NCBI GenBank assembly: GCA_905234305.1
Contig: CAJOHT010000020.1
Location: 2,032 to 15,170, forward strand
Direction of reading: 5' to 3'
DNA: 13,139 bases
Origin: an uncultured Ruminococcus sp.
GTDB lineage: Bacteria; Bacillota; Clostridia; Oscillospirales; Acutalibacteraceae
Shown here: positions 1,634-13,139 of the stretch, one piece after another
How the letters are laid out: each line of letters opens with the position of its first letter
How positions within the stretch are numbered: position 1 is the stretch's first letter
The notes under the pieces: model-generated
The model's input: only the letters and a program-made list of their open reading frames with translations
Told to the model about the DNA's origin: nothing
The model's database searches: none
Translations under genes and position numbers: made by a program

Positions 1634-2955
1634 AAAGTTCTGAGTCCTTTAGGATATTTATTCTTAAGCCTTCCGCCCGAAGCCTTACCGAAGCCCGTCG
1701 TAATTCCGTTAACGCATACGACGGTATAGCCTTTAAGCGAAGGGCTGACCTCTATTTCTTCTCCGTGGAGGAAATTTTTTATCTCTTTGCCGTTGATATC
1801 TAAATCAACAGCTCTATTACAGCTTTCTTTATTCAGCGTCATAAAGATATGATGGGCAGGCTCTACCCTGTTTTTCTTGATTTCGCCTATTAATACACCT
1901 TTTCTCAGTATATTAAGGCCGCGCGTGTCGGGTATATAAAATCCCGCGTAGATATTTTTCCCGATTATCTCCAGATTACCGCGCAGTGTTTCATCTTTAA
2001 AAGAGTTGTCATAAAATTCATATACAAAATCGGGAATTTTACAAGCCTCGCGCTTTATATCGGGAACCGATACGGTATCCGCGTCCTTCCTAAGTTTTAC
2101 CGCGAAATGACCTTCTCCGCCGTCCATAGGAAAAATCCTGCGGGCGTATTCCAGAGTCGGTCTGCCGAAGATAACGCCGCTGTCAACTACTGAAAACTCG
2201 GGATTCTGCTCTAAAAATTCCGTAATAACGCCCTCATTTTCCTCATAGGAAAAAGTACAGGTCGAATACACAAGCTCTCCGCCGCCCTTAAGCGCGTATT
2301 TGGCGGAATTCAGAATATTAAGCTGTCTTTGAGCGCAGCTTTTAACGTGTTCAACGCTCCATTCCGACTGAGCCTCGGAGTTTTTGCGGAACATTCCCTC
2401 ACCGCTGCACGGAGCGTCTACAAGTATCTTATCAAAATATCCGCCGAGCTTTTCGCAAAGTATATCGGGGCGGCAGCTTGACACTACCGCGTTTTTTATT
2501 CCCATGCGCTCAATATTCGATAAAAGAATATTAGCGCGTGATTTTACAATTTCATTACTCCATAGAAACCCTTTTCCGTTGAGTTTAGAGGCAATCTGCG
2601 TACTTTTACCCCCCGGGGCGGCGCATAAATCGAGAACCTTGTCGCCCTCTTTTACGCCGAGCATTTCGACAGCCGAAGCAGCGGAAGGCTCCTGAACATA
2701 AAACGCGCCCGCGTGATGGAGCGGATTGTTGCCGATTGAAACAATTTCCTCGGGCAAATAGAATCCCTCTTTACAAAACGGAGTGCTTTTAAGCTCAAAA
2801 CCGATAATCGATTTCAGCTTTTCGCAGGAGCATTTAAGAGTGTTAACTCTTATTCCGCGAAAAACCTTACCGCTGTTATAGTATTCCAAAAAAGCGTCGA
2901 ACTCGCTGCCGAGCAGCGACTTCATTCTATCTAAAAAAACCGAAATATTTTCCAT
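1630..2955 (-). CDS. rsmF: RsmF-type rRNA (cytosine-5) methyltransferase, NOL1/NOP2/Sun family
   Basis: The product is 441 residues from the ATG at 2955-2953. The family methylates cytosine C5 in rRNA with SAM; RsmF members act on 16S rRNA, though the exact target base here is inferred. Visible motifs are the N-terminal FRGIRVNTLK, the SAM-binding VLDLCAAPGGKSTQIA, the catalytic DAPCSGEGMFRK and the second cysteine motif YSTCTFSYEENE. The C-terminal region from about residue 300, ending RLKNKYPKGLR, fits the PUA-like extension typical of RsmF. An in-frame TTG at 2961 would add two residues. I chose ATG because it gives the usual N-terminus, but neither start has a clear Shine-Dalgarno, which is odd for this window. 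It is the first gene of the rsmF-rsmA operon. Confidence 0.9.
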   Translation of the reverse strand: MENISVFLDRMKSLLGSEFDAFLEYYNSGKVFRGIRVNTLKCSCEKLKSIIGFELKSTPFCKEGFYLPEEIVSIGNNPLHHAGAFYVQEPSAASAVEMLGVKEGDKVLDLCAAPGGKSTQIASKLNGKGFLWSNEIVKSRANILLSNIERMGIKNAVVSSCRPDILCEKLGGYFDKILVDAPCSGEGMFRKNSEAQSEWSVEHVKSCAQRQLNILNSAKYALKGGGELVYSTCTFSYEENEGVITEFLEQNPEFSVVDSGVIFGRPTLEYARRIFPMDGGEGHFAVKLRKDADTVSVPDIKREACKIPDFVYEFYDNSFKDETLRGNLEIIGKNIYAGFYIPDTRGLNILRKGVLIGEIKKNRVEPAHHIFMTLNKESCNRAVDLDINGKEIKNFLHGEEIEVSPSLKGYTVVCVNGITTGFGKASGGRLKNKYPKGLRTL

Positions 2956-4176: not shown

Positions 4177-4725
4177 ATGAAGAAATTTGTATGCTCAGTA
4201 TGCGGTTACGTTCACGAGGGAGATACACCTCCCGAGGTATGCCCCGTATGTAAGGCTCCTGCCGAGAAATTCAACGAGGTTAAAGGCGAAGCAAGCTACG
4301 CTACGGTACATATCGTAGGCGAAGGCAAGGCTGAGGGCGTAAGCGAGGATATTATCAAGGATTTACGCGACAACTTCACTGGCGAATGCACCGAGGTAGG
4401 TATGTATCTTGCTATGGCTAGAGTTGCCGACAGAGAAGGCTATCCCGAAATCGCCGCCGCTTTTGAAAAATACGGCTTAGAGGAAGCTGTTCACGCAGCT
4501 AAATTTGCCGAGCTTTTAGGCGAGGTTATCACCGACTCTACCGCAAAGAACCTTAAAATGCGCGCTGACGCTGAAGCTGGCGCCTGCGAGGGTAAGTTCG
4601 ATTTAGCTAAGAGAGCTAAAGCCGCTGGACTCGACGCTATCCACGATACAGTTCACGAAATGGCTAAGGACGAGGCTCGACACGGCGCAGGCTTCGCAGG
4701 ACTTTTAAAGAGGTATTTCGGTTAA
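4177..4725 (+). CDS. Reverse rubrerythrin (rubredoxin domain N-terminal), peroxide/oxygen reductase
   Basis: The 182-residue protein begins with a rubredoxin-type Fe(SCys)4 domain (C6-x2-C9-G and C22-P-x-C25). A ferritin-like four-helix domain follows, with carboxylate and histidine ligands in [27 protein letters not shown] and [10 protein letters not shown]. In classical rubrerythrin the rubredoxin domain is C-terminal, so this is the reversed type known from clostridia, which reduces H2O2 and O2 with electrons from NADH through carrier proteins. It acts in the cytoplasm in oxygen defence. The start is set by AAGGAGG (4162-4168). The final 15 codons ([15 protein letters not shown]) and stop recur at 4945-4994 downstream, with only synonymous changes. 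Confidence 0.93.
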
Positions 4726-4727
4726 GG
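4678..4727 (+). repeat. Rubrerythrin 3'-end repeat, original copy
   Basis: These are the last 15 codons, the stop and two following bases of the rubrerythrin gene. 45 of 50 bases match the downstream copy at 4945-4994. A shorter match to the AGGTATTTCGGTTAA core lies at 5383-5397. Confidence 0.85.
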
Positions 4728-4735
4728 AGTATCAA

Positions 4736-4944: not shown

Positions 4945-4994
4945 AGACACGGCGCGGGCTTCGCGGGACTTCTTAAGAGGTATTTCGGTTAAGG
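4945..4994 (+). pseudogene. Rubrerythrin 3'-end fragment (second copy)
   Basis: This reads [15 protein letters not shown] and a TAA in one frame, identical in protein to the rubrerythrin C-terminus. All five base differences from 4678-4727 are synonymous (CGA to AGA, two GCA to GCG, and TTA to CTT for a leucine). Sequence similarity stops abruptly upstream of the Arg codon. The pattern implies descent from a functional, diverged rubrerythrin gene whose body is missing here. The similarity also continues slightly into the spacer before the next gene's ATG. Confidence 0.8.
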
Positions 4995-5001
4995 TGTAGA
5001 T

Positions 5002-5522: not shown

Positions 5523-6017
5523 TTATGGCGCGAGGATATTGATCATCATATTGTACTCATCCTCTACAAGCTCGTTATCGCCCATAAAGATAAGCGCGAT
5601 GAATGTAGCGAACATACCCCTTGACTCGGGCTTTAACTTACCCGAAAGCTCAGATAAATCAAATTCAGTCTTATTGATTTTTTCAATATCTTCCGCGAAG
5701 GGCTGTCCGAATAGTCCGATAGTTTCCATAATATCATCGAGGACTTTTTCCTCCTCCAAGGCAAAATCTTTATCGACAAAAGCCGCCGCGAGTACGATTT
5801 GGCATAAAAACTCGTAATATGAAGTACATTTAAAATCCTCGACCTTTATCCCCCTAAGCTCAGGCTCCAGCGCCTTATACGAAATTTGTGCCATAGACTT
5901 TTTCTGCTCAGGCGTCATTTTCATAATATTCTCAGCTGTACCGCTTATGAAATTTTTTATCGCTTCCTGCTTTTCCTCGGGCAAGGAAGCGAATGATGTA
6001 TTTTTATTATCTGACAT
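5523..6017 (-). CDS. Uncharacterised acidic helical protein, 164 aa, paralog of its upstream neighbour
   Basis: This is a soluble, acidic, probably all-helical protein. It shares an extended pattern with the adjacent 170-aa protein: LPEE at the start, MTPEQKKSM against MTREQRESM, EPEL, the VDKDF/VDKRF segment with a following acidic helix, LKPESRG, and the end ALIFMGDNELVEDE with a terminal AP. The alanine-rich helix with VDKDFALEEE faintly recalls TerB-like domains, but I cannot establish this. The start is supported by AGGAGG (6024-6029). A 35-bp spacer separates it from the paralog, so both form an operon. No catalytic motif, signal or membrane segment is seen. Confidence 0.7.
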   Translation of the reverse strand: MSDNKNTSFASLPEEKQEAIKNFISGTAENIMKMTPEQKKSMAQISYKALEPELRGIKVEDFKCTSYYEFLCQIVLAAAFVDKDFALEEEKVLDDIMETIGLFGQPFAEDIEKINKTEFDLSELSGKLKPESRGMFATFIALIFMGDNELVEDEYNMMINILAP

Positions 6018-6052: not shown

Positions 6053-6565
6053 TTACGGTGCCGCAATATGGAGCATAATATCGAATTCATCCTCGGCAAG
6101 CTCCTTATCGCCTAAGAAGATAAGCGCGGTAAATGTACAGAACAGACCTCTTGACTCAGGCTTCAGCATTTTTGAAACATCAATCAGATTGAGCTTAACG
6201 TTTTTAACGTTCTCGATATTTTCCTTAACGATATCTTTAGCGTACGGCTGGCGGACTAAGCCGAGCATTTTTCTTATCTCGTCAACAGCGCGCCTTTCGG
6301 CGAAGGAAAACCTTTTATCAACAGCAGCTGCGGAAAGCGCCATCTGATATAAAAACTCGTCGTACGACTCGCAGTCAAATTCCTCGACGCTTATAGAAGC
6401 AAGCTCAGGCTCCAGCTTTTCGTAGCAGATTTTAAACATAGACTCCCGCTGCTCGCGCGTCATACTTAAAATATTATCGGCAGTATTATTTACAAAAAGT
6501 TTAACAACGTCCTTCCTCTCCTCGGGCAAAGAGTCATACGGAACGCTTTTCTGATATTCAGCCAT
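6053..6565 (-). CDS. Uncharacterised acidic helical protein, 170 aa, first of a tandem paralog pair
   Basis: I place the start at the ATG at 6565-6563 (MAEYQKSVPYDSLPEER) because AAGGAGGA (6571-6578) sits five bases upstream. An open frame continues 22 codons further upstream but crosses the predicted -10 region, so the longer form is unlikely. The protein aligns with the downstream 164-aa protein along most of its length and ends DKELAEDEFDIMLHIAAP. The pair probably arose by tandem duplication. It diverges from the structured-RNA transcript on the other strand. Function is unknown; TerB-like is a weak guess. Confidence 0.7.
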   Translation of the reverse strand: MAEYQKSVPYDSLPEERKDVVKLFVNNTADNILSMTREQRESMFKICYEKLEPELASISVEEFDCESYDEFLYQMALSAAAVDKRFSFAERRAVDEIRKMLGLVRQPYAKDIVKENIENVKNVKLNLIDVSKMLKPESRGLFCTFTALIFLGDKELAEDEFDIMLHIAAP

Positions 6566-6602
6566 AGTTCTCCTCCTTAAAAAGATACTTTTTATTAAAA
6601 AT

Positions 6603-6631
6603 ATAATACCATACGCAGATTTAAAATACAA
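6603..6631 (-). promoter_or_regulatory. Promoter of the tandem paralog pair
   Basis: On the minus strand, TTGTAT (6626-6631) and TATTAT (6603-6608) are 17 bp apart, with an extended TGG before the -10. Transcription would start near 6596, about 31 nt before the chosen ATG, which supports the 170-aa start. Confidence 0.65.
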
Positions 6632-6648
6632 TATTTTTATACTAATTA

Positions 6649-6677
6649 TTGCTTTTTCAGCTCTAATATGCTACAAT
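6649..6677 (+). promoter_or_regulatory. Promoter of the structured RNA
   Basis: TTGCTT (6649-6654) and TACAAT (6672-6677) are separated by 17 bp and the -10 is extended (TGC). The expected start is G6684, exactly the first base of the outer RNA stem. It diverges from the paralog-pair promoter, with 17 bp between the two -35 boxes. Confidence 0.7.
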
Positions 6678-6683
6678 TTTCTT

Positions 6684-6839
6684 GTCACACAAAGTTTTAT
6701 TATTGTAGTTTTTTAGGCTGTATTTTTGTTTCGGCAAAAATACTAGCTCAATATTCTGCAACCTAAAAGGCTACGAGTATTTTGTGTGACAACAATGAGC
6801 TGTGTATTTTTCGTGCGCGGCTTCGGTCGCGCATTTTTT
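6684..6839 (+). ncRNA. Candidate structured RNA of about 156 nt (small RNA or riboswitch/attenuator leader), class not recognised
   Basis: Read on the plus strand, the transcript folds into nested helices. The outer stem is GTCACACAAA (6684-6693) with TTTGTGTGAC (6781-6790). A middle helix GTAGTTTTTTAGG (6705-6717) pairs with CCTAAAAGGCTAC (6762-6774), the only non-Watson-Crick pairs being two G-U. An apical hairpin is GTATTTTTG-tttcgg-CAAAAATAC (6720-6743). AGCTCA (6745-6750), unpaired in this fold, is complementary to TGAGCT (6796-6801) just outside the outer stem, giving a possible pseudoknot. A second GTATTTTT at 6803-6810 could compete for CAAAAATAC. A promoter lies at its 5' end and an intrinsic terminator at its 3' end, followed by a small ORF. 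Either it is an independent small RNA or it controls that ORF by termination. It does not resemble 6S, SRP, RNase P, tmRNA or any riboswitch I can recall. Confidence 0.6.
6814..6839 (+). terminator. Strong intrinsic terminator with UUCG tetraloop
   Basis: TGCGCGGC (6814-6821) and GTCGCGCA (6826-6833) form an 8-bp stem with one G-U pair, capped by TTCG and followed by six T. It ends 16 bases before the start of the next ORF, so transcription of that ORF requires readthrough. Confidence 0.9.
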
Positions 6840-6855
6840 ATTTTAGGGGTAAAAT

Positions 6856-7080
6856 ATGGATTTTGAAAAGGCTTTTTCCGATTTTATAGACAATACAGAA
6901 TACGACGAGGCTCAAAGCGCTCTATTTAAAATAACAAGAGAAGCGTTTAAAGCGGGCTTCAAAGCTGCTCAAAACTCCCCTCCCCCGAAAAATAAAATAC
7001 TCGAAATAAACGCAACTAAGGCAGAGTGTTTTAAAATTCACTCTGCCTTACTTACATATTATTTTATGAATAAGATTTAA
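6856..7080 (+). CDS. Small hypothetical protein, 74 aa, downstream of the structured RNA
   Basis: The first 50 residues (MDFEKAFSDFIDNTEYDEAQ...GFKAAQNSPPPKNKILE) look like a genuine small helical protein with an amphipathic region and a proline-rich linker. AGGGG (6845-6849) six bases before the ATG supports translation. The last 20 residues are encoded by the hairpin at 7020-7047, and the 3' end overlaps the convergent Big_2 gene by 17 bp. The C-terminal tail is therefore probably not functional, and a nearby earlier stop may have been lost. Family unknown. Expression presumably depends on readthrough of the terminator at 6814-6839. Confidence 0.55.
   Translation: MDFEKAFSDFIDNTEYDEAQSALFKITREAFKAGFKAAQNSPPPKNKILEINATKAECFKIHSALLTYYFMNKI
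7018..7049 (-). terminator. Terminator hairpin, copy 2 (inverted), for the Big_2 gene
   Basis: The GGCAGAGTG/CACTCTGCC stem lies at 7020-7028 and 7039-7047, extended by AA/TT. It lies 15 bases past the Big_2 gene stop on the minus strand. Read on the minus strand, its 28 bases are identical to those at 8469-8496. It also falls inside the end of the plus-strand 74-aa ORF. Confidence 0.75.
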
Positions 7081-9588: not shown

Positions 9589-11971
9589 TTATTCAAATAC
9601 AAACTTACCGTCTTTAAAGTCGCAGGTAATCTTATTATTCTTGCTTACGGAGCCGTCAAGGATTTTCTCAGAGAGTTCATCCTCGATTTTACTCGTAATA
9701 GCTCTTCTAAGCGGTCTCGCGCCGTAGTTCTCGTCGTAGCCCGCGTTAGATATCTCGGTAATCGCGTTGTCGGTAAAGTCAACCTCAATTTCGAGAGCCT
9801 TTAAGCGCTCCTTAAGGTTATCGAGCATCTTAGCGGCAATCTCCTTTATCTCGTCCTGAGTGAGCTTATTAAACACGATTATATCGTCGATACGGTTAAG
9901 GAACTCGGGGCGGAAGGTGTTTTTGAGTTCGCCCATAACGATATCCTTAATGTTCTCGCTTTCCTTCTCCTTATCCTCGGTAAATCCGAGGCTCGCCTGC
10001 TTATCGGTAATGAGCCTTGCGCCGACGTTACTCGTCATAATGATTACCGTGTTTTTAAAGTCTACGGTTCTGCCCTGGGAGTCTGTAAGACGTCCGTCAT
10101 CGAGAATCTGGAGCAGAGTGTTGAAAACGTCGGGATGAGCTTTTTCGATTTCGTCAAAAAGGATTACCGAATACGGCTTTCTCCTTACCTGCTCGGTAAA
10201 GTGGCTGCCCTCGTCGAAGCCGACATATCCGGGAGGCGAACCTATTAACTTAGACACGGTATGCTTCTCCATAAACTCGGACATATCGAGTCTAATCATA
10301 GCGTTCTCATCGCCGAACATCGCCTGCGCAAGCGCCTTGCAAAGCTCGGTTTTACCTACGCCCGTTCGGACGCTTCGGGTCCTTAAGACCGACTCTGCCG
10401 CGGCGGATTGCCTTAGCTACGGCTTTTACTGCCTCGTCCTGACCGATAACTCTATCGTGGAGAACGTCCTCCATCTTAAGCAGGCGCTCGCTCTCCTCCT
10501 CGGTAAGCTGGACTACAGGTATACCCGTCCACTGGGACACGATTTGAGCGATATCCTCGGCATTAAGCTCGCCTGTCGCGGAGTTCTGGTTTTCCTGCCA
10601 TTTCTGCTTTTCATCCTCAAGCTGTTTAGAAACTTCCTTCTGCTCATCGCGGATTTTAGCGGCACGCTCAAAATCCTGCTCGTTAACGGCGCTGGATTTT
10701 TCAGCCTCAAGGTCCTTTACCTTCTGTTCAAGCTCCTTTAATGAATTCGGAGCGGTCAAGCTCTTGAGTCTTATTCTCGACGCGCCCTCGTCGATAAGGT
10801 CGATAGCCTTATCGGGCAGGAAGCGGTCGGCGATGTATCTTGAGGAAAGCTCTACAGCAGCCTTAATAGCCTCGTCCGAGATTTTAACCTTATGGTGGGC
10901 TTCGTAACGGTCGCGGAGTCCCTTTAAAATCAGTATAGTTTCTTCCTCGCTCGGCTCGCCTACGTTAACGGGCTGGAACCTGCGCTCTAAAGCCGCGTCC
11001 TTTTCAATATACTTTCTGTACTCGGAGATAGTAGTCGCGCCGATAACCTGGAAATCGCCTCTCGCGAGCGACGGCTTTAATATATTAGCCGCGTCGGTGC
11101 TGCCCTCGGCGGAGCCCGCTCCTACGATAGTATGAAGCTCGTCGATAAAGAGGATAACATTTTTAGCCTTTTTAACCTCGTCGATAGCTTCTTTTATTCT
11201 CTCCTCAAAATCGCCGCGGTATTTAGCTCCCGCTACCATACCCGTAAGGTCTAAACTTACGATACGCTTGTCGCGGAGGATCTCGGGCACTTTGCCTTCG
11301 ACGATTTTAAGCGCTAAGCCCTCGGCTACAGCGGTTTTGCCTACACCAGGCTCGCCGATCAAAACAGGGTTGTTCTTAGTACGGCGGGAGAGTATCTGGA
11401 TAACTCTTTCGATTTCCTCTTCCCTGCCGATTACGGGATCTATCTCGCCTTTCTTAGCGGCTTCGGTCAAGTCGCGTCCGAATTTATCGAGCCCCTTTGT
11501 ATTTGAATTATGCTTAGAGTTATTATCATTTTCATTACCGACATAATCCTCGGCGGTATCCATAACCGTATTGAGGTTAACTCCAAGCTCGTTTAAGAAA
11601 TTATAAGCATAGCTGTCGGTTTCCTGCATAATGCTGAAAAGCAGATGCTCTGTACCGACATAGTTATTACCGAGCTTCGAGGCGATAAGCAGCGCATTCT
11701 GCATTACGCGCTTGCTTCTCGGGGTAAAGTCGTTGGGAGTGAGCTTTACGGGCGAAGCCGTTCCTACGCTCTCCCTTATTCTTTCCTCAAGCTCAGAGGC
11801 GTTCAATCCCGCCTGAGATAAGGTAACAGCTGCAACTCCGCTGCCTTCCTTAATCAATCCGAGAAGGAGATGCTCGGTACCGATATAGGTATGTCCCATT
11901 TCACCCGCCGAGTTAATAGCGATGTTCAAAGCCTTATTTGCTTTTTGGGTAAAGTTTCTGAATTCATACAT
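9589..11971 (-). pseudogene. clpC: clpC, Hsp100 ATPase of the ClpCP protease, frameshifted in the second ATPase domain
   Basis: ClpC is a hexameric AAA+ unfoldase that feeds proteins, including arginine-phosphorylated ones, to ClpP. The first open part (10352-11971, 539 codons) shows two Clp_N repeats (1-145), D1 with Walker A GEPGVGKT (206-213), pore loop KYRG (250-253), Walker B ILFIDE (about 273-278), and a UVR/coiled-coil M domain (about 410-465). It ends [11 protein letters not shown] and stop. The second part continues in another frame from [19 protein letters not shown], with pore loop [12 protein letters not shown], Walker [12 protein letters not shown], the ClpP-contacting LGF loop and the normal C-terminus. 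Relatives have SFIFLGPT between PNG and GVGKT. Those eight residues are absent, which fits a 26-nt deletion and restores an 802-codon gene. AGGAGG (11980-11985) precedes the ATG. A sequencing or assembly error is possible. Confidence 0.88.
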
Positions 11972-12255: not shown

Positions 12256-12311
12256 ATTACCTATTACTTATTACCTATTACCTTAAATTCTTAATTCTTA
12301 CCTCTTAATTC
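12256..12311. repeat. Heptanucleotide array running into the 3' end of mcsB
   Basis: Eight consecutive 7-bp units with changing sequence can be read: ATTACCT, ATTACTT, ATTACCT, ATTACCT, TAAATTC, TTAATTC, TTACCTC, TTAATTC. The last three lie inside the mcsB coding region, covering its stop codon (12291-12293) and final residues. The same 7-bp periodicity appears at 3208-3416 with other unit sequences. Confidence 0.65.
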
Positions 12312-13139
12312 TTCACTAACTATCTCCGCTCTTAAAATATCGCGGTCGTGCGGAGAGATTTTCTCGTTTTTATTCACCATCATCGTAGCGGGCTGGATAT
12401 CGCTAATGAGCTTATCGATTGTTTCAATATCGACGTCCTTTATCACTCCGCTGTTGATGCCGAAGCGCACGTTCGAGAGAAGCTCTAAAGCCTCCTTACA
12501 GCTTATCAGCTTAGCGTATTTTAGAATTCCGAGGCTTCTCGAAATCTTATCCTGAGTTTCTAAACTTTCTATCATACGCTTCTGAGCCTGAAGCTCCTGG
12601 GTAACAAGCTGGTCGGCTATATTCTTAAGATTTTCGACCGCGGCTTTCTCGGAAATGCCGAGCGTTACCTGGTTAGAGAGCTGGTACATAGCGCCCTCGG
12701 GCTCGCTTCCTTCGCCGTAAGCTCCGCGAATAGTAAGACCGAGCTATGAGAGATTGCCCGCGATCCTGCCGATAGCCTTTCCGCTCTTTAAAGCGGGAAG
12801 ATGGAGCATTACGGAAGCTCTCATTCCCGTGCCGAGGTTAGTCGGGCACTGGGTAAGATAACCGAGCTTACTATCGAAGGCAAAGTCAAGATTTTCGTCG
12901 AGCAGGGTATCGAGCTTATCAGCGGTATCATACGCTTCCTCGAGCTTAAAGCCCTTATATAGAATCTGGAGCCTTATATGGTCCTCCTCGTTTATCATAA
13001 TGCTCATTGTCCTGTCCTTGGAGAGGATAAGCGCTCTGCCCGCGGAATCGCTCATAAACTCGGGACTCGCAAGATGCTGTTCCACAAGCGAGATCCGCTG
13101 AGCCTCGGTCAAATCCCTTACGTACAGCACGTCGAGTTC
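12291..13139 (-). pseudogene. mcsB: mcsB, protein-arginine kinase, 5' end outside the window and interrupted by an in-frame TAG
   Basis: McsB phosphorylates arginine residues of misfolded proteins, marking them for ClpCP, and also inactivates CtsR. About 281 codons of the usual 350 are visible; the N-terminus is beyond base 13139. Recognisable parts are NEEDHIRLQ, the catalytic-site TQCPTNLGTGMRASVMLHLPAL, the loop RGAYGEGSEPEGAMYQLSNQ, and the C-terminal RDILRA, matching the RDxxRA phosphoarginine pocket. Between GRIAGNLS and LGLTIRG, a TAG (12744-12746) replaces a codon that is lysine in relatives. The frame is otherwise open on both sides, so one base change (AAG to TAG) explains it. The downstream neighbour clpC is also broken. 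It could be a true nonsense mutation, a suppressed amber codon or a sequence error. Confidence 0.88.

Follow-up and report, generated by a model that had tools for sequence, protein, structure and literature searches.

A structured RNA between a promoter and a small ORF

What is the RNA encoded between a predicted promoter and a small open reading frame (ORF) in this 13,139-nucleotide stretch of DNA (the window), and does it control the gene behind it? A preliminary description had proposed an attenuating riboswitch or a small RNA of unrecognised class. The fold energy of positions 6684–6855 was -57.2 kcal/mol, compared with -34.0 ± 3.2 kcal/mol for 200 dinucleotide shuffles (z = -7.2; 0/200 shuffles as low). 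The structured RNA at 6684–6839 is genuine, its fold lying far above chance. It lies on the forward strand, as do all elements described for it below. Its promoter, recognised from the sequence and the family pattern, spans 6649–6677 and consists of a -35 element TTGCTT (6649–6654), a 17-nt spacer, TGn and a -10 element TACAAT (6672–6677). A 6-nt gap separates the -10 element from the predicted first transcribed base, G6684, as in the family pattern.

A closing stem of 10 bp starting at G6684, an inner helix of 13 bp and a hairpin of 9 bp had been described. All three are present in the minimum-energy fold, but they are longer than proposed. The outer stem P1, whose first base is the predicted transcription start, has 12 pairs (6684–6695/6779–6790), P2 has 15 (6703–6717/6762–6776) and P3 has 10 (6720–6729/6734–6743). 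P1 and P3 are supported by the fold and by covariation in the family, P2 by the fold and by six covarying pairs of the family model. The U-rich 5' strand of P3 has a rival: AAAAATAC (6736–6743), part of the 3' strand of P3 (hereafter the A-strand), is complementary to GTATTTTT at both 6720–6727 and 6804–6811. Next to the A-strand, AGCTCA (6745–6750) is complementary to TGAGCT (6796–6801) beyond P1, as had been noted. Because this pseudoknot pairing and the alternative pairing of the A-strand are collinear, they make up a single long-range helix, P4 (3' strand 6796–6811), with a duplex energy of -14.5 kcal/mol; AAAAATAC is thus common to P3 and P4.

The fold is followed by an intrinsic terminator (6813–6839; helix 5 of the family), a 9-bp hairpin (6813–6821/6826–6834) with a T run to 6839. 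A further pairing, absent from the preliminary description, is an 11-bp antiterminator (6797–6807/6813–6823). Its 5' strand lies within the 3' strand of P4, and its 3' strand comprises the 5' arm of the terminator and two loop bases. The antiterminator alone has an energy of -13.5 kcal/mol and the terminator hairpin -15.5 kcal/mol. In minimum-energy folds of the growing transcript, the antiterminator forms earlier than the terminator.

Directly behind the terminator, where a ribosome site and ORF had been expected, we found a weak Shine–Dalgarno-like AGGGG (6845–6849) and an ORF of 74 amino acids (6856–7080). This ORF has four homologs besides itself and no signal peptide by our heuristic. In another species of the genus, a homologous ORF (51% over 51 amino acids; L015) lies behind a homologous RNA. 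The window ORF is probably the regulated gene. In its last third, a 12-bp inverted repeat (7017–7028/7039–7050) is perhaps a terminator common to the ORF and the convergent gene. On the other side of the RNA, the adjacent minus-strand ORFs 5523–6017 and 6053–6631 look paralogous by eye, the second being divergent from the RNA promoter. Further away, a 53-nt direct repeat (91%; 4679–4731 and 4946–4998) repeats, behind a small intervening ORF, the 3' end of a presumably rubrerythrin-like gene. On the minus strand, a presumably ClpC-like gene is split into two frames (9589–10320 and 10352–11971), its ATP-binding stretch spanning the break; the split may reflect a faulty assembly or a genuine lesion. 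Upstream of it, a gene that we assume to encode a McsB-like arginine kinase is likewise in two frames (12291–12689 and 12744–13139, minus strand).

A multi-copy RNA family of gut Clostridia

A blastn search with the window RNA over 59 genomes gave matches in 30 (E ≤ 0.01). The whole architecture was common, by eye, to 19 of these 30 loci, the window's included; the remaining 11 were partial or unrelated and were left out. Fourteen loci were aligned (A1) to build a covariance model, R1. In A1, 91.7% of cells were paired and 17 pairs showed two-sided changes, compared with 9.4 in shuffles; the weakest helix was P2 (72.8% paired). R1 matched 102/295 genomes of the order (E ≤ 1e-3). A second covariance model of the family, R2, was used for the genus and class searches and matched 47/60 genomes of the genus, with up to 14 matches per genome (G015 and G031), and 80/291 genomes of the class. 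The latter were mostly from other orders, which rules out restriction to one order. Outside the class, 0/383 genomes had an R1 match (E ≤ 1e-4, strict filters). An R1 search of the phylum matched only the window's own genome among 398, of which 15 belong to the class. That genome carries a second, weaker copy (E 2.4e-5 with R1, 1.8e-5 with R2), which precedes an ORF with a signal peptide by our heuristic (L128). The window RNA is thus one member of a large, multi-copy family of gut Clostridia, a big group of bacteria, mostly uncultured, in which the family is common. When named species genomes were scanned for an exact pattern, 66 stretches were returned. Their titles name Clostridia, Oscillospiraceae, Ruminococcaceae, Ruminococcus and similar, or Bacillota, and a label of the herbivore or rumen type stands in over half of them.

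Copies of the RNA can stand in tandem before one gene. By eye, contig 20 of G015 has one full unit followed by two shortened ones, in which the 5' halves of P1–P3 are missing and the A-strand, the pseudoknot strands and the terminator are kept. In the second copies of L064 and L117, the pseudoknot and antiterminator strands are altered and still seem complementary by eye. L170 carries three tandem terminator units (2025–2430, minus strand), the later of which seem, by eye, to take the T run of the preceding terminator as 5' strand of P3. A full copy, the only exact-pattern stretch among viral contigs, also lies at 6412–6577 of L127, where a contig with a viral label (IMG/VR) ends. Given this label, a phage or prophage may carry the element.

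We then aligned 95 distinct sequences of the family (A4). P1, P2, P3 and the terminator were paired in 97.2% of cells, compared with 32–53% in a control with slid partners; 30/37 pairs showed two-sided changes, and 365 double-change cells were counted against 86 in shuffles. A later match set fitted with R2, which includes seven opposite-strand shadows and some A4 sequences, was 96.1% paired, with 503 double-change cells against 111. Both alignments were built on the nested structure and are biased towards it, and the shuffle controls leave kinship among the sequences in place. Near-invariant positions are several P1 pairs, one G of the P3 loop and the CAA that follows P1; in P1, the near-invariant pairs stand beside freely varying ones.

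Competing long-range pairings

P4 and the antiterminator are absent from every covariance model. In A4, 96.4% of P4 cells were paired, with 66 double-change cells compared with 16.8 in shuffles and two-sided changes in 5 pairs compared with 2.2. One P4 pair occurs as UA in 41 sequences, CG in 27 and UG in 27, and is broken in 0/95; another, at the edge of the pseudoknot (columns 101/175), is unpaired in 31/94. The proposed pseudoknot and the proposed switching of AAAAATAC between its two partners both covary across these 95 sequences. The antiterminator was paired in 96.7% of cells, with 16 double-change cells compared with 8.6 in shuffles; pairs with two-sided changes were not in excess (2 compared with 2.2), and one pair was unpaired in 18/91. 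Covariation of the antiterminator in A4 is modest.

We also compared the duplex energy of each RNA's own strands with that of strands from other RNAs (partner swap). The elements could be placed in 98 of the 110 sequences of the first set and not in 12, and removal of one opposite-strand shadow left 97. The A-strand and the 3' U strand gave z = -4.2 (22 distinct pairs), the pseudoknot z = -3.4 (82 distinct pairs) and the antiterminator z = -4.5 (75 distinct pairs); all nine A-strand/3' U positions pair in 89/97 sequences. In 74 later sequences, none of which was in the set used to build R2, z was -7.0 for P4, -9.1 for the antiterminator and 0.1 for one negative control. For this later set, 12 of 86 sequences were removed because they matched A4 rows exactly, were repeats or were too short; 8/78 candidates came from the 14-sequence R1 seed, and one has its 3' part in common with a cut-off A4 row.

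The helices share strands in a chain: the A-strand is used by P3 and P4, the strand after P1 by P4 and the antiterminator, and the 5' arm of the terminator by the antiterminator and the terminator. From the aligned sequences, this chain of exclusions would leave two states, P3 with the antiterminator (ON) and P4 with the terminator (OFF); P4, formed with P1 and P2 intact, is a predicted pseudoknot. Mutual exclusivity of two covarying pairings, P4 and the antiterminator, suggests that the RNA is probably a bistable transcription attenuator. Family median energies (164/173 RNAs) were -8.7 kcal/mol for P3, -15.4 for the P4 duplex, -19.1 for the antiterminator duplex and -16.8 for the terminator; duplex energies omit the cost of loop closure and are not directly comparable with those of hairpins.

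Promoter geometry and downstream genes

In 82 of the 94 copies with upstream DNA, the best-scoring -10 element ends exactly 6 nt before P1. The spacer is 17 nt long in 77/94 and TGn is present in 84/94; a promoter score of at least 9/12 was reached by 78.7% of the 94 copies, compared with 14.8% of shuffles. Weak opposite-strand matches beneath strong ones (shadows) were removed, 3 from the 110 copies of the first set, leaving 107, and 7 from the second. A chosen ORF with a Shine–Dalgarno-like site within 160 nt of the terminator was found in 82/107 copies of the first set, at a median distance of 22 nt; the other 25 lack one over this distance, some because the contig or locus ends. In the second set, a gene was chosen in 58/77 copies and none in 19/77. 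Since many chosen genes start close behind the terminator, there is little room for another promoter, and their expression should depend on readthrough from the RNA's own promoter or from further upstream. That the chosen gene starts within 50 nt in 71/107 copies favours an attenuator over a stand-alone RNA.

By a home-made heuristic, 44/61 downstream ORFs of at least 100 amino acids have a signal peptide, compared with 30/273 background ORFs (Fisher p = 1.8e-21); the background was drawn from both strands of L061–L126 only, and some of its ORFs may be spurious. In the second set, a signal peptide was called in 37/49 entries, one L170 gene being counted twice and L195 yielding two overlapping entries. 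Pfam domains were tallied for 79 of the 82 chosen ORFs of the first set and 53 of the 58 of the second. BspA-type LRR_5 repeats were found in 16/79 and 15/53, HTH_3 in 4/79 and 5/53, AMP-binding in 4/79 and 1/53, and PadR in 4/53 of the second set; others were CHAP, dockerin, ricin lectin and peptidases. The predicted regulon thus consists mainly of secreted or surface proteins, plus some small DNA-binding regulators.

A putative switch and its signal

The window RNA very probably belongs to a cis-acting family of transcription attenuators, multi-copy in gut Clostridia and not in Rfam 15, that would switch between P3 with the antiterminator and P4 with the terminator. As in an attenuator, a predicted terminator and a mutually exclusive antiterminator lie ahead of a gene. 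The mechanism that follows appears well supported by the comparisons. Transcription would start at the first base of P1, and P1, P2 and P3 would fold in the nascent RNA. The strand after P1 (GGAGCUAUG-type; GAGCUGUGUAU in the window) would have two alternative partners. In the ON state it would pair with the terminator's 5' arm to form the antiterminator, P3 would be kept and the gene would be read. In the OFF state it would reach back through P1 to pair with the GCUC loop strand, and strand exchange would invade P3, pairing AAAAAYRC with GYRUUUUU and freeing the terminator. The balance between ON and OFF would be set by a signal stabilising either P1/P2/P3 or the pseudoknot, most likely a small molecule.

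A new riboswitch class with a putative ligand is our leading idea: a conserved, covarying fold lies before genes together with a predicted expression platform. A riboswitch class that heads many unrelated genes typically reports a global signal. We tentatively propose, as a plausible if not quite probable account, a new class for such a signal, which might be a second messenger or a metabolite from the community or the host. Across gut Clostridia this class would govern surface proteins together with regulators of the transition type, and toehold strand exchange from P3 to P4 would link a promoter-locked aptamer to the terminator. The near-invariant P1 pairs, the G of the P3 loop and the CAA after P1 may mark a candidate binding site. 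This reading is weakened because the CAA seems, by eye, to be part of the antiterminator as well in some members, and a metabolite pocket is not obvious because few unpaired positions are strictly conserved.

Known effectors were compared between genomes with the family and those taken as family-negative, that is, without an R1 match under strict filters (8 of these 22 were negative with R2 as well). GGDEF domains were found in 21/47 family-positive and 14/22 family-negative genomes. This distribution makes c-di-GMP unlikely as the general ligand, and no c-di-GMP riboswitch model of Rfam matched. CsrA was present in 3/48 family-positive and 3/22 family-negative genomes, and LoaP exceeded the cut-off in only 1/70 genomes, one taken as family-negative (0/48 family-positive), making either unlikely as a general factor.

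The same attenuator might instead answer to a protein, an RNA-binding antiterminator or a terminator-promoting factor. The near-invariant P1 pairs and CAA amid freely varying pairs would fit recognition by a protein, but neither of the two factors examined, CsrA and LoaP, follows the family, and we consider a protein signal unlikely, if worth keeping in mind. A switch that senses a physical state (temperature, the speed of RNA polymerase or NusA/NusG) and has no specific ligand would agree with the AU-rich P3 and with the nearly equal energies that the window's antiterminator and terminator have. It is rather improbable, as the conserved P1/P2 architecture and the near-invariant unpaired bases would then seem superfluous.

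Could the RNA act in trans, the gene behind it being incidental? It has its own promoter directly before the first stem, followed by a fold and a terminator, and some tandem copies lack a gene of their own (L101, L064). A stand-alone small RNA is nevertheless improbable: the short median distance to the chosen genes, the strong bias towards genes for secreted proteins and the recurrence of the window's RNA–ORF pair in another species argue for action in cis, and the conserved antiterminator would have no obvious role. It is hardly conceivable that the RNA is a chance fold or represents the palindromic ends of a mobile element. The copies are multiple and dispersed, and one full copy lies on the viral-labelled contig, but compensatory changes occur in all nested helices, the promoter and terminator are conserved, blastn of phage and plasmid records gave no match at E ≤ 1e-5, and the z-score of the fold speaks against chance. 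Transposon ends in particular are excluded by the compensatory changes and the promoter–terminator layout with a gene behind it. The original proposal of an attenuating riboswitch or small RNA, with pseudoknot and switching, is supported by the covariation of P1, P2, P3, the terminator and the pseudoknot with its alternative pairing among the homologs and by the lack of an Rfam match. Neither a lack of covariation nor a fit to transposon ends, two outcomes that would have spoken against it, was observed.

Gut bacteria may thus contain an extensive regulatory system that has escaped notice. The covariance model lets its regulon be read from genomes, the competing helices yield precise mutational predictions, and the identity of the signal would reveal how these bacteria choose what to display and secrete.

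Comparison with known RNAs

None of the Rfam 15 covariance models reached its gathering score over the motif. The 43 sources searched, some of them the same place under two identifiers, were the window (E ≤ 1) and sets of 18 (E ≤ 1), 7 (E ≤ 10) and 17 loci (E ≤ 1). Matches overlapping the motif (mir-651, Ocean-V, RsaF, ncS54, IsrM and others) were all far below gathering score. A Gut-1 RNA (RF01706) over gathering score lies about 250 nt from an RNA copy (L162, 1904–1975, minus strand), and a weak Gut-1 match occurs in L009.

A 2017 survey reportedly described 224 structured RNAs. Listings and abstracts of the literature contained no matching description, although an earlier account in supplements or subscription papers is possible. 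The candidate structured RNAs of comparative-genomics surveys (PMC2864571, PMC8632094, PMC11109978, PMC8040213) appear, from the parts consulted, to be the same kind of element. No description matching the RNA stood in passages of PMC11109978, PMC8040213 and PMC2864571, or was returned by a term search of PMC8632094. A passage of one survey notes that terminators overlap the crcB and pfl RNAs (PMC2864571).

Like the ZTP/pfl, fluoride/crcB and preQ1 riboswitches, the new RNA is a 5' leader with a predicted pseudoknotted fold and a terminator, in which readthrough would be decided by strand competition. These three are transcription-terminating riboswitches with pseudoknotted aptamers. The new RNA differs from them in having no Rfam match and another arrangement of helices, in its predicted targets, which are mostly secreted proteins rather than one metabolic pathway, and in a predicted start site locked to the first stem. 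In scale it resembles the c-di-GMP riboswitches GEMM-I (which we take to be RF01051) and c-di-GMP-II (presumably RF01786), which stand in many copies per genome ahead of genes for surface or secreted proteins; unlike them, it has no Rfam match, and 26/47 family-positive genomes are without a GGDEF match. BglG/RAT and ANTAR are protein-dependent antitermination leaders. With these the new RNA shares the choice between antiterminator and terminator within a 5' leader; it is, however, longer and pseudoknotted, and its choice would be made by strand exchange.
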